Source: Lichenibacterium ramalinae
Lineage (GTDB): Bacteria; Pseudomonadota; Alphaproteobacteria; Rhizobiales; Beijerinckiaceae
Direction: 5' to 3'
NCBI RefSeq assembly: GCF_004137085.1
Contig: NZ_QYBC01000025.1
Span: 1-64,000 of the forward strand
Length of the DNA: 64,000 nucleotides
Shown here: positions 58,892-63,898 of the stretch, in pieces
How the letters are laid out: the number at the start of each line of letters is the position of its first letter
Numbering within the stretch: the stretch's first letter is position 1
Made by a program: the position numbers and the translations under genes
The notes under the pieces: generated by a model
Databases searched by the model: none
Seen by the model: the letters and a program-made list of their open reading frames with translations, nothing else
Told to the model about the DNA's origin: nothing

Positions 58892-59102
58892 CGCGCCATG
58901 CGAGCGCCCGAACCGCGGCACGACCGCGTCCGATCCCTGTCGAAGCCGTTCATGTGCCGTTGGGGTGCGGCGCACCATGAAGGCCGCGAGCTGCCCGTGG
59001 GCCGTCGCATCGGCGTGCGACCTCCGGGTGGCATCCGACCGGCCCTCGCGCGTCCCCGGGCGCAGCGACGGGCCGGCCGGACGTCTCCCGCCGGAGAGTG
59101 AC

Positions 59103-59474
59103 ATGAGCCGCAGCACCGTCGTGATCGTGGAGGACGAGCCGCTCGTCCGCCTCACCGCCTCCTCGCTCTTCGCCGAAGCCGGCATCACCGTGGTGGAGTT
59201 CGCCGACGGGGATGCCGCCATCGACTACATCCGCGACCACCAGGGCGACGTCGCCGCCATCTTCACCGACGTCTACCTGCCGGGCGAGACCACGGGGCTC
59301 GAACTGGCCGGCATCGTCTCGCAGGTCTGCCCCGACATCGCCGTGCTGGTCACATCCGGCACCCATCTCGGCACGCCGCGGGACCTCGGGCCGCGCGTGC
59401 GCTACGTGCCCAAGCCCTGGCACCCCACCGACGTGCTGAGGACGGTGAGGGACGCAGTGCTGGCCGCCGCCTGA
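59103..59474 (+). CDS. single-domain response regulator
   Basis: A 123-residue CheY-like receiver: VVIVEDEPLVRL (acidic pocket), AIFTDVYLPGETTGLEL with the phospho-Asp near residue 56, VTSG (Thr/Ser switch) and RYVPKPWHPTDVL with the conserved Lys. No output domain. Such stand-alone receivers in alphaproteobacteria pass signals between histidine kinases. GGAGAGTGAC precedes the ATG. The cyclase follows 220 bp downstream on the same strand; a link is possible but not shown. Confidence 0.88.
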   Translation: MSRSTVVIVEDEPLVRLTASSLFAEAGITVVEFADGDAAIDYIRDHQGDVAAIFTDVYLPGETTGLELAGIVSQVCPDIAVLVTSGTHLGTPRDLGPRVRYVPKPWHPTDVLRTVRDAVLAAA

Positions 59475-59695: not shown

Positions 59696-61642
59696 GTGCT
59701 CGATCGGTTCAACGCCCGCCTCACCACGCTGCCGCTCCGCACCGCCATCGCCCTCGCCTTCACGCTGATCCTGCTGTTGTCCGGCGGCAGCCTGATCTGG
59801 CTCGACCAGCGGGCGACGCTGCACCTGCTGCAGCAGCAGGTCGACGGGCAGTTCGACGGGCTGGTGTCGGGGGTGACGTCGCGCATCTCCCTGCAGTTCG
59901 CCAGCGCCGACGCGGTGCTGGACACGCTGGCCATGGCGCCGCCCGCGACGGAGGATGCACAGGCGGCCGGGCTGGTGCTGGCGCGCGTCCTCGCCAACCT
60001 CGGCGAGACCGCCCCTGCCGTGCGCTCGATCGTCACCGCCCGAGGCGACGGGCATTACATCATGGCGCAGCGCGACATCCAGCGCGCCAACGGCCGCCGT
60101 TCCAACGCCGCCTATACGGTGCGGATCGGGGAGGAGGCCGGGGGCACCGCCACCGAAACCGTGCTGCGGATCGACGCCGGCTTCGCCGTCCTGTCCCGCG
60201 GCGGGCCGCAGGCCGTCGCCTACGACGCGCGCCTGCGGCCCTGGTACACGATGGCGGCCGCCGTGCCGCGCGCCGTGACGACGCCCCTGTATCCCTTCCG
60301 CAGCGGCCGCCACTACGGCTTCACGCTCAGCCGCCGGGCCCAGACCGACGCCGCCCGCGTGTTCGGCATCGACATCCGGCTCGACAGCCTGTCGGCGAGC
60401 CTCGAAAGCGCGCTGGCGGTGCCGGGCGAGCATGTGGCGATCTTCTCGCCCGACGGCGCCCTGCTGGGCGATTCCGACAGGCTGCAGATCGACCGGCCCC
60501 TCGACGCCGCCGAGCCGCCCGAGGGCACGCAGCTGACGGCCTGGCACATCGACACCGCCATCTTCGCCGCCTACCGGCGGGACCCGGCATCGCGCGACGT
60601 CGCCATCGTGGTGGAAGGGCAGCCGCTCTACGCCAACATCGCCCGCATCACCGTCAACGGGGCCGATATGGTGGTGGCCAGCACGGTGCCGGCGGCGCGG
60701 TTCGAGGCCCCCGCGACGCGGCTCCTGCTCTGGTCGCTGCTGGTGCAGGCCGCCGTGGTGGCGCTGGCCTTCCTGCTCGTGTCGCTGGCGTCGCGGTCCA
60801 TCGCCCGCCCCATCGTGGCACTGGCGACCGACGTCGAGCACATCGTGCAGTTCCGCTTTCCCGAGCGAGGGCCGCCCGAAAGCCGCATCCGGGAAATCCG
60901 CCGCCTCGCCGGGGCCGTCGACATGCTGGCCCTCACCCTGCGGACCTTCTCGACCTACCTGCCGCAGGGCTTCGTCCGCACCATCGTGGCGGGCGGCCGG
61001 GCCCCGGGGCTGGGAGGCCGGCGGCAGCCCATCGCCGTGATGTTCACCGACATCGACGGCTTCACGGGCCTGTCGGAGGCCCTGGCGCCCGACGAACTCC
61101 TGTCGCAGCTGTCGCGCTATTTCGCCGAGATCAGCGACGAGATCCTGGCGTCGGGCGGCACGCTCGACAAGTTCATCGGGGACAGCGTCATGGCCTTCTG
61201 GCCGCTGCCGCCGGAGGGGCCGGGGCGGGCCGGCGCGGTGTGCCGGTCGGTCGTGGCGGCGGCCCGGCGCGTCGAGGCGCTGAACGCCGCCTTCGCCGCC
61301 GAAGGCCGCCCGGTGCTGTCCACCCGCTTCGGCCTCCACCTCGGCGAGGCGCTGGTGGGCAGCGTCGGCACGCCGGACCGCATGAACTACACGGTGCTGG
61401 GCCACACCGTGAACGTCGCGTCCCGGATCGAACAGCTGAACAAGGACTACGGCACCCGCATCCTGGTCAGCGGCGCATTGCGCGACGCCGCCGGCCCGGC
61501 CTTCGCGTTCCGCCACGTCGCCGCGAGACCGGTGCGCGGCACGCAGGACAGCATCGACCTCTACGAACTCCTCGACGCGGTGCCCCCGGCCGAAGCGCCT
61601 CGGGACGAAGAGCCTCGGGCCGAAGCGGCACCCGAGAGCTGA
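59696..61642 (+). CDS. membrane-bound class III adenylate/guanylate cyclase with extracellular sensor
   Basis: The 648-residue protein starts at GTG 59696 (GGAAGG in front). A first helix (about 15-36) and a second (about 343-363) enclose a periplasmic dCache-like sensor. A HAMP-type segment (SRSIARPIVALATDVEHIV) leads to the cyclase domain (about 430-600). This has the metal Asp in VMFTDIDGFTGLSE, LDKFIGDSVMAFWPL with the second Asp and a Lys at the adenine-selecting position, and LGHTVNVASRIEQLN. The Lys supports ATP rather than GTP. It would make cAMP in response to a small external ligand. It has no fused effector. Confidence 0.9.
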   Translation: MLDRFNARLTTLPLRTAIALAFTLILLLSGGSLIWLDQRATLHLLQQQVDGQFDGLVSGVTSRISLQFASADAVLDTLAMAPPATEDAQAAGLVLARVLANLGETAPAVRSIVTARGDGHYIMAQRDIQRANGRRSNAAYTVRIGEEAGGTATETVLRIDAGFAVLSRGGPQAVAYDARLRPWYTMAAAVPRAVTTPLYPFRSGRHYGFTLSRRAQTDAARVFGIDIRLDSLSASLESALAVPGEHVAIFSPDGALLGDSDRLQIDRPLDAAEPPEGTQLTAWHIDTAIFAAYRRDPASRDVAIVVEGQPLYANIARITVNGADMVVASTVPAARFEAPATRLLLWSLLVQAAVVALAFLLVSLASRSIARPIVALATDVEHIVQFRFPERGPPESRIREIRRLAGAVDMLALTLRTFSTYLPQGFVRTIVAGGRAPGLGGRRQPIAVMFTDIDGFTGLSEALAPDELLSQLSRYFAEISDEILASGGTLDKFIGDSVMAFWPLPPEGPGRAGAVCRSVVAAARRVEALNAAFAAEGRPVLSTRFGLHLGEALVGSVGTPDRMNYTVLGHTVNVASRIEQLNKDYGTRILVSGALRDAAGPAFAFRHVAARPVRGTQDSIDLYELLDAVPPAEAPRDEEPRAEAAPES

Positions 61643-61678: not shown

Positions 61679-62437
61679 TCAGCGCGGGGTGTCGTCGCCG
61701 AGGTAGGAGCGAACGCGCGTGCGGCCGTGGCTGAGGTCCCGGGTGACGATCGAGACGCCGGGGGTCGAACCGGTGGGTTCCGGTTGGCGGCTGCCCGGCA
61801 TGGCGGTGGACTCGTCCGCCTGCGCGGCGAGGCCCGGCGCCGCGGCGGCATAAGCGGTGTCGGGGGCACCGGCGGCGCCACGGGGCGCGTCGTCCCGCCC
61901 TTCGGGCACCACCGAGCCGGGCTCGATGGCGGCCGTGTCCATCGGGCCGTCGAACAGGGGCTGATCGGCCCGGCTGGCGGCGAAGCCGCCGGTGCCGCTG
62001 CCCGCCGGCGCATAGGCCATCTCGCGCTCGCCGCGGCTTTCGCCGCCGCCGAAGGCGCTCCAGCCCTCGTCGCGCCACCCGGCGGCCCGCTCCTCCATGT
62101 CGACCGCCCCGTCGCGGTCGAGGATGTCGAGCACCGATTGGTAGGCGGCGCTGTCGGTCTGCACCGAGACCGCGATGCCGCCGCGGCGCAGGCCCTCGGC
62201 ATACATGTGGCGGTCCTCGTCGGGCATGAAGAACTCCCGCAGCGAATCCCAGAAGCCGTGCGGGTGGGCCGGCTCGGCCACGGCGGTCTCGCCCCCGGCG
62301 ACGCGCACGTCGCCGCTCGGCACGCCCGCCCGCACGAGGTCCTGCCGGGCCTGGTCGGCCGCGTCCGGCGTGTCGAAGAAGGCCGTGACGGACCGCGGCG
62401 AGGCCGCCCGCCCGGTGTCGAGGTCGTCGTAGGCCAT
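61679..62437 (-). CDS. general stress protein (GSP17M/YflT-like N-terminus)
   Basis: A 252-residue protein. The N-terminal roughly 110 residues look like the heat-induced stress YflT/GSP17M domain: SVTAFFDTPDAADQARQDLVRAGV, FFMPDEDRHMYAEGLRRGG, VSVQTDSA. The middle is a low-complexity Ala/Gly/Pro stretch. The tail reads VTRDLSHGRTRVRSYLGDDTPR, close to the start of the YsnF/AvaK domain (RVRSYVVE), but it ends there; the rest of that domain is absent. This suggests a 3' truncation or a natural short form. An EcfG-type promoter lies just upstream. Function is unknown beyond stress response. Confidence 0.8.
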   Translation of the reverse strand: MAYDDLDTGRAASPRSVTAFFDTPDAADQARQDLVRAGVPSGDVRVAGGETAVAEPAHPHGFWDSLREFFMPDEDRHMYAEGLRRGGIAVSVQTDSAAYQSVLDILDRDGAVDMEERAAGWRDEGWSAFGGGESRGEREMAYAPAGSGTGGFAASRADQPLFDGPMDTAAIEPGSVVPEGRDDAPRGAAGAPDTAYAAAAPGLAAQADESTAMPGSRQPEPTGSTPGVSIVTRDLSHGRTRVRSYLGDDTPR

Positions 62438-62591: not shown

Positions 62592-63812
62592 TCAGTCCGG
62601 CCCCGTCCCCCCGCCCGGGCGGGCCGTGCCGGCGCGGGCCGGCGCGGGCTCGTCCGGCGCCCGCAGCCGGTAGCCGACGCCCGTCTCGGTGAGGATGTAG
62701 CGGGGCCGCTCCGGCACGGGCTCGATCTTCTGGCGCAGCTGGCGGACGTAGACCCGCAGGTACTGGGCGTCGGTGGAGCCGCCCCACACGTCGCGCAGGA
62801 TGTGGGCGTGGGTCAGCACCTTGCCGGCATGCAGCACCATGAGGCGGAGCACCTCGTATTCCTTCGGCGACAGCCTGATGTCCTGCTCGCCCATCCTGAC
62901 GAGCCGGCGCACGAGGTCGACCGACAGGTTCTCCACGCGGAAGACCGGCCGCTCGCCCTGCACGGCGAGCTGGTGGCGCAGCGCGGCGCGCAGCCGCGCC
63001 AGCAGCTCGTTCATGCCGAAGGGCTTGGTGACGTCGTCGTCCGCGCCGAGGTCGAAGGCCTCGACCTTGCCGGTCTCGTCGCCCCGGTCGGGACGAGGGG
63101 CCGGCACGGAGAAGGCGAGGGTGAAGGCCGCCCCGGCCCGGTCGGTGCGGTTCGAGGCCGTGAGGGTGCCGCCCATGGCTTCCACGAAGCCGCGCGCGAT
63201 GGCGAGGCCCAGCCCCGTGCCGGCCCGCACGCGGTCGCCCTTCCGGGCGCGGTAGAACTTGTCGAAGATGCGCTCGACGTCGCCGGCCGGGATGCCGTCG
63301 CCCTCGTCGAGCACCTGCAGCACCAGGCGGCGGCCGTCCTGCCAGCTCCGCAGCCGGATCGCCGTGCCCTCGGGCGCGTATTTGGCGGCATTGTCGAGCA
63401 GGTCGAACAGGGCCTGTTCGAACAGCACGGCGTCGAGCGCGAGGGGTGGCAGGTCGGGCGCGGTCTCGACCTCGACGCGGTGGGCCGTGAGGATCTTGGC
63501 GGCACGGCGCAGGGCGGCTTCGACGATCTCGCCGACGTCGGTCTCGGCGCGGTTCGGCGCCACCGCGCCCGCTTCGAGCCGCGTCATGTCGAGCAGGTCG
63601 GCGATGAAGCGGTTCAGGCGCTCCGCCTCGTCGATCACGGTGCCGAGGAGATCGAGCTTGGCCTCGGGATCCAGCGCGCCGTCGAGGTCGCGCGCGAAGC
63701 CGCGGATCAGCGCGACCGCCAGGGCGATGCCGGCGACCCGGTAGAGCCCCCGCTCGAACGGCCACAGCACCGGGGACAGGATCGTCCGCTCCCCGGTGAA
63801 CACACGGGTCAT
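62592..63812 (-). CDS. in-frame chimera of kdpA, kdpD and kdpE remnants
   Basis: One 406-codon frame joins three Kdp pieces. Residues 1-29, and about 12 codons before the ATG, match the KdpA N-terminus ([32 protein letters not shown]). Residues about 45-240 match the KdpD kinase after its H-box: [59 protein letters not shown]. Residues 242-395 match KdpE from the end of its receiver ([21 protein letters not shown]) through a complete winged helix ([38 protein letters not shown]). The KdpD H-box and the phospho-Asp of KdpE are gone, as are kdpB and kdpC. The ATPase fold and DNA-binding domain remain. Probably the residue of deletions in a kdpABCDE locus; a new regulator cannot be excluded. Confidence 0.8.
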
Positions 63813-63898
63813 GTAGAGCCCGAGCGGTTTGGCGAGGGCGACCTTGCCGGCGCCGACCCAGGCGCCCGGCGGGCCGCCGGCTCAGCCGATCGTCCGGC

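Follow-up and report, generated by a model that had tools for sequence, protein, structure and literature searches.

The window, by which we mean the whole stretch of 64,000 nucleotides analyzed, is the first 64 kb of a 73,148-base contig of Lichenibacterium ramalinae. On its minus strand, at 62592–63812, lies a single open frame of 406 codons in which KdpA-, KdpD-, and KdpE-derived sequences follow one another in operon order without a stop. A stop-free minus-strand frame of this composition had been reported in a first-pass annotation, and it was recovered in the ORF list with its translation and in blastn and tblastn comparisons. That annotation let the frame run from 63893, which is excluded by a TGA at 63882–63884, the fourth codon from that position. 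Since the first ATG, GTG, or TTG past this stop is at 63812, the frame starts there at the earliest and the ORF is 62592–63812. Inspection by eye found no Shine-Dalgarno-like stretch directly ahead of 63812. A promoter and terminator scan of the relic region (L013 2300–5000) found none of either; because only 0.0 and 0.3 were expected in shuffled sequences, the empty scan is uninformative in such DNA. On the left, the relic is preceded by genes for a response-regulator receiver protein (58965–59474, plus strand) and, immediately after it, an adenylate/guanylate cyclase-domain protein (59696–61642, plus strand), and then by that for a 252-aa protein without a Pfam or NCBIfam match (61679–62437, minus strand). 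The last belongs to a multicopy family with 30 matches spread over all six genomes of the genus, six of them in this genome.

The pieces were placed against the intact kdp unit of a congener genome (G001) by blastn and tblastn. Two minus-strand pieces derive from KdpA: residues 17–55 of G001 KdpA at 63726–63842 (74% identical over 39 aa by tblastn, with E 1.5e-11, and 77% over 101 nt by blastn) and residues 148–161 at 63690–63731 (all 14 aa identical by tblastn, and 89% over 53 nt by blastn), so that the KdpA remainder amounts to 53 residues and its homology begins at about 63842, ahead of the start codon at 63812. The adjoining KdpD piece (63098–63693, minus strand; blastn, 85% over 596 nt, ungapped) corresponds to the last ~198 residues of G001 KdpD and, by Pfam, holds the end of HisKA without the phospho-His together with HATPase_c. 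The KdpE piece (62649–63087, minus strand; blastn, 87% over 439 nt, ungapped) comprises the winged helix (Pfam Trans_reg_C) and, from residue 84 onward, the latter half of the receiver; the KdpE structures 4kny and 4kfc match it from residue 82. A C-terminal tail of about 19 codons (62592–62648, minus strand) had no counterpart in G001 kdpE in the tblastn comparison. These alignments point to a homology of the pieces that is certainly beyond chance.

Relative to G001, 282 nt are missing inside kdpA, 6282 nt before the KdpD piece, and 296 nt before the KdpE piece. The frame is kept at all three internal junctions, at the last of them because kdpD and kdpE occupy different frames in G001. A fourth break, on the left, replaced the KdpA start codon, leader, and first 16 codons with unrelated DNA. 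A short, imperfect repeat, GGCATCG/GGGATCG in G001, marks the junction of the 282-nt deletion; at the 6282-nt and 296-nt junctions, little is discernible at this divergence. Comparison with G001 by blastn revealed no frameshift or stop accumulated in the ~1 kb of relic. The earlier reckoning of two junctions that keep the frame by chance about once in nine has to be revised: as the KdpA part consists of two pieces separated by a frame-keeping deletion, there are three internal junctions and the chance is 1 in 27.

Two domains were recognized well above their Pfam cut-offs, HATPase_c at residues 127–234 (81.7 bits; cut-off 26.4) and Trans_reg_C at residues 310–383 (77.0 bits; cut-off 26.2; profile positions 2–77 of 77). 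HisKA was only partial (residues 35–82, from profile position 19) and scored 23.6 bits, below its cut-off of 26.9. Neither full-length NCBIfam model reached its curated threshold: the KdpE model NF007820 gave 137.6 bits versus 325, and the KdpD model fell far short, with 116.8 bits versus 1123. The histidine that we take to be the phospho-acceptor of KdpD precedes the first retained KdpD residue by 17 positions in G001, and the presumed phospho-Asp of KdpE is residue 54 in G001, while the relic's KdpE begins at residue 84. Both residues thus lie outside the retained alignment, as the first-pass annotation had stated, and the dimerisation/phosphotransfer domain and the receiver have each lost one half. 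In the structure model, built on a five-row alignment with one KdpE row, the mean pLDDT was 51.8; the CA domain was predicted with mostly good confidence (about residues 90–180 and 201–240), and the low confidence in the KdpE part says nothing about the protein. A larger alignment, which had paired KdpD rows with KdpE, was left aside.

We compared the relic with 82 other KdpD and 79 KdpE rows (81 and 78 distinct, L015 and L028 being one contig). A genome-contig scan with short peptides covered 460 relatives, of which the best 80 were kept. Position 137, which we assume to belong to the N box, is Asp in the relic alone and Asn in all 82 KdpD rows. The earlier view that the ATP-binding N and G boxes and the winged helix look intact fails for the N box; the HATPase_c match is good and Trans_reg_C is complete. 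Further deviations are N72D (Asn in 81 of 82 KdpD rows, in a column slightly biased against deviation, one retrieval peptide including the relic's N72D) and Y260D, presumably in the receiver half (Tyr in 76 and Phe in 3 of 79 KdpE rows). At position 313, the relic has Arg where 76 of 79 KdpE rows have Lys; its F253 is common to G001 and a second congener, G003. At columns conserved to at least 98%, the relic deviates at 2 of 50 in KdpD, where the other rows average 0.34 with a maximum of 3, and at 0 of 36 in KdpE; its surplus of changes at conserved positions is slight.

The assembly is a draft of 76 contigs, 99.4% complete, and six genomes of the genus were compared, its own (G000) included. 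KdpA, KdpB, and the KdpD sensor domain exceeded their cut-offs in all five other genomes, two of which (G001 and G003) carry close full-length kdp units with KdpD and KdpE matches of 79–82% identity. In G000, profile searches gave no match to KdpA (TIGR00680) or to the KdpD sensor domain (PF02702) and none over the cut-off to KdpB; a lone KdpB match of 179 bits versus 527.9 was taken for another P-type ATPase. kdpC was not found in the 13-kb flank of the relic. Nothing else of kdp was found in G000, though draft genomes can miss a locus, and no second complete kdp operon, about which the first-pass annotation had asked, was found in the 99.4%-complete assembly. Four Kup-type (K_trans) genes exceeded the cut-off. 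An assembler might have collapsed an intact operon in such a 76-contig draft. We regard this as extremely unlikely: the relic lies inside its contig with long flanks, ~9 kb of contig continuing beyond it, kdpB is nowhere in the assembly and kdpC is not in the 13-kb flank, and substitutions found only in the relic, together with new sequence at both ends, are unlike a misjoin.

Elsewhere in the genus, the second kdp locus of G004 (L119:3800–5037) retains kdpB only as profile positions 5–371 and 577–674, and the two parts are separated by a pair of frames on the minus strand that encode transposase domains (rve, rve_3, and HTH_21 in one; HTH_Tnp_1 in the other). This operon has been broken by an insertion element, a further case of kdp decay in the same genus.

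The surroundings of the kdp unit differ between species. In G001, the unit adjoins ligA; in G000, ligA is on another contig, where the match to G001 stops short of kdp. G003 and G001 have the kdp unit in common but not the long flanks. The gene to the left of the relic (61679–62437) has its best G001 and G003 relatives away from kdp, and the catalase-like gene to the right has no relative in these two genomes at E 1e-30. On these flank and ligA comparisons, the kdp unit lies at three different places in the three species. A PTS IIA (PtsN-type)-like gene was recognized by eye after kdpE in G001 (L014:11466–11966), within the stretch shared with G003; none was seen beside the relic. The differing positions could mean that the operon was already broken when transfer or rearrangement brought it here, a variant of decay in place that we consider unlikely, as two of the three species place intact units differently too, and position is silent on the state at arrival.

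How much the open frame itself is worth depends on base composition. The window has 70.7% G+C and the relic 73.4%. Openness is weak evidence, since three frames out of six run through the whole relic without a stop; if the junctions were phased in any of the 26 other ways, 7 of these would also give more than 300 open codons. Only the frame match (1 in 27) needs explaining, and the case was chosen for being in frame.

Selection was assessed with a branch model (custom script) applied to the KdpD and KdpE parts, 340 codons in all, and eight relatives; nine had been chosen, and L030, which has no usable KdpE, was dropped. Two placings of G000 differed by 0.56 lnL, and the better one was used. 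On the G000 branch, which represents a single strain, no other strain of the species having been found, dN/dS was 0.093 versus 0.050 elsewhere, a difference that was not significant (p 0.076), with an interpolated interval of about 0.05–0.19; a value of 1.0 was rejected (p 1.6e-6). Branches with an intact kdp gave 0.100 (G001) and 0.023 (G003). Of the comparison over three parts suggested in the first-pass annotation, two could be made by dN/dS: 0.131 versus 0.046 for KdpD alone (2ΔlnL 3.97) and 0.060 versus 0.051 for KdpE alone. The KdpA pieces (39 codons) are too short and allow codon-position differences only, which are 7/5/19 between G000 and G001 and 7/6/15 between G001 and G003. There is no clear relaxation, which agrees equally with a recent collapse and with a chimera that is still under selection. 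If the branch combined constrained with neutral evolution, its neutral share could be about a tenth to a seventh. Among our results, the branch dN/dS is the principal one not in favor of decay.

Other cases of the chimera were sought in 90 loci, 79 of which have both KdpD and KdpE matches. In each of the 79 (among loci L014, L015, and L028–L107), KdpD and KdpE are read in different frames, so none is a fusion. The proportion is far above two thirds and perhaps reflects a retained frame relation from an old start-stop overlap. A family search, with six candidates scored per genome, matched 3 of 298 genomes at E 1e-90, namely G000, G001, and G003, the latter two with intact units rather than chimeras. 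Among plasmids, 364 records match and none covers at least 80% of the query; the 20 of these 364 matches that were listed have separate kdpD and kdpE genes. The literature search returned no description of this locus and nothing on bacterial pseudogene fusions.

These results bear on the possibility that the frame is a selected chimera, in which an ATP-binding, kinase-like domain is joined to a KdpE/OmpR-type DNA-binding domain without phosphorelay; it might, for example, bind old KdpE sites constitutively or in response to ATP. If true, a new regulator would have been born in one step from operon collapse. Both domains still score well, the CA domain is mostly well modeled in the prediction, the three junctions share one frame, and dN/dS resembles that of an intact gene (0.093 versus 0.100 in G001). 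Set against this are the loss of the KdpA start and leader with no Shine-Dalgarno-like stretch seen by eye ahead of 63812, the replacement of an Asn of the N box (N137D) and of a Tyr of the receiver half (Y260D), the loss of the usual target kdpFABC, and the lack of a second case in the 79 loci or the three family-search genomes of 298. We consider a selected chimera very unlikely.

The locus is instead very probably the decaying remnant of a recently collapsed chromosomal kdpFABCDE-type operon and not a new type of regulator. Compared with intact units of the same genus, the order of what remains is unchanged despite the missing stretches, which comprise the kdpA leader and start, an internal segment of kdpA, the whole span between kdpA and a point midway through the KdpD phosphotransfer domain, and the end of kdpD with the first half of kdpE; profile searches, blastn, and tblastn agree that the relic lacks essential parts which intact orthologues have. 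This arrangement would have arisen by separate deletions between short repeats, probably recently compared with the time since the species split. The shared frame of the three junctions would be luck (1 in 27) in G+C-rich DNA in which half of the frames are open. The remnant would have no regulatory function, and potassium uptake may proceed through the Kup-type transporters instead. The first-pass annotation had read the locus as a collapsed kdp operon preserved as one in-frame chimera that, if expressed, would be an unusual regulator. The collapse, the operon order, and the lost signaling residues stand; preservation as a regulator is not supported, because the KdpA start and leader, half-domains, and the target operon are lost, N72D, N137D, and Y260D have arisen, and openness is weak evidence. 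Decay of this kind illustrates, on a small scale but neatly, that long frames resembling designed fusions can be left behind when G+C-rich DNA suffers deletions, and such frames will be annotated as fusion proteins.

Measured against its intact counterparts, the relic retains 83% amino acid identity to G001 KdpD over 198 residues, but it is without the sensor domain, the membrane part, and the phospho-His, and its N-box Asn is replaced. To G001 KdpE, it retains 87% identity over 146 residues with a complete winged helix, whereas residues 1–83, including the phospho-Asp, are gone and a conserved Tyr of the receiver half is replaced. Unlike KdpA, it has no full K+-channel subunit (TIGR00680). 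A published parallel is Mycobacterium tuberculosis B0/W148, in which a 2-nt deletion is reported to fuse KdpD to KdpE (PMC12210973). In both cases, a deletion puts KdpD and KdpE in one frame, and regulation of KdpFABC is lost. In B0/W148, the deletion lies near the end of kdpD, and the phospho-His and kdpFABC are retained; in the relic, large deletions removed the phospho-His and kdpFABC, and KdpA pieces head the frame. Expression of kdpFABC in B0/W148 is reported to match that of a kdpDE deletion mutant and to be hardly responsive to potassium loss, with no significant difference in growth (PMC12210973). That this fusion behaved toward kdpFABC as a kdpDE deletion mutant also speaks against a selected chimera in the relic. 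A deletion-made KdpD-KdpE fusion is already known, and in M. tuberculosis it broke the system (PMC12210973).
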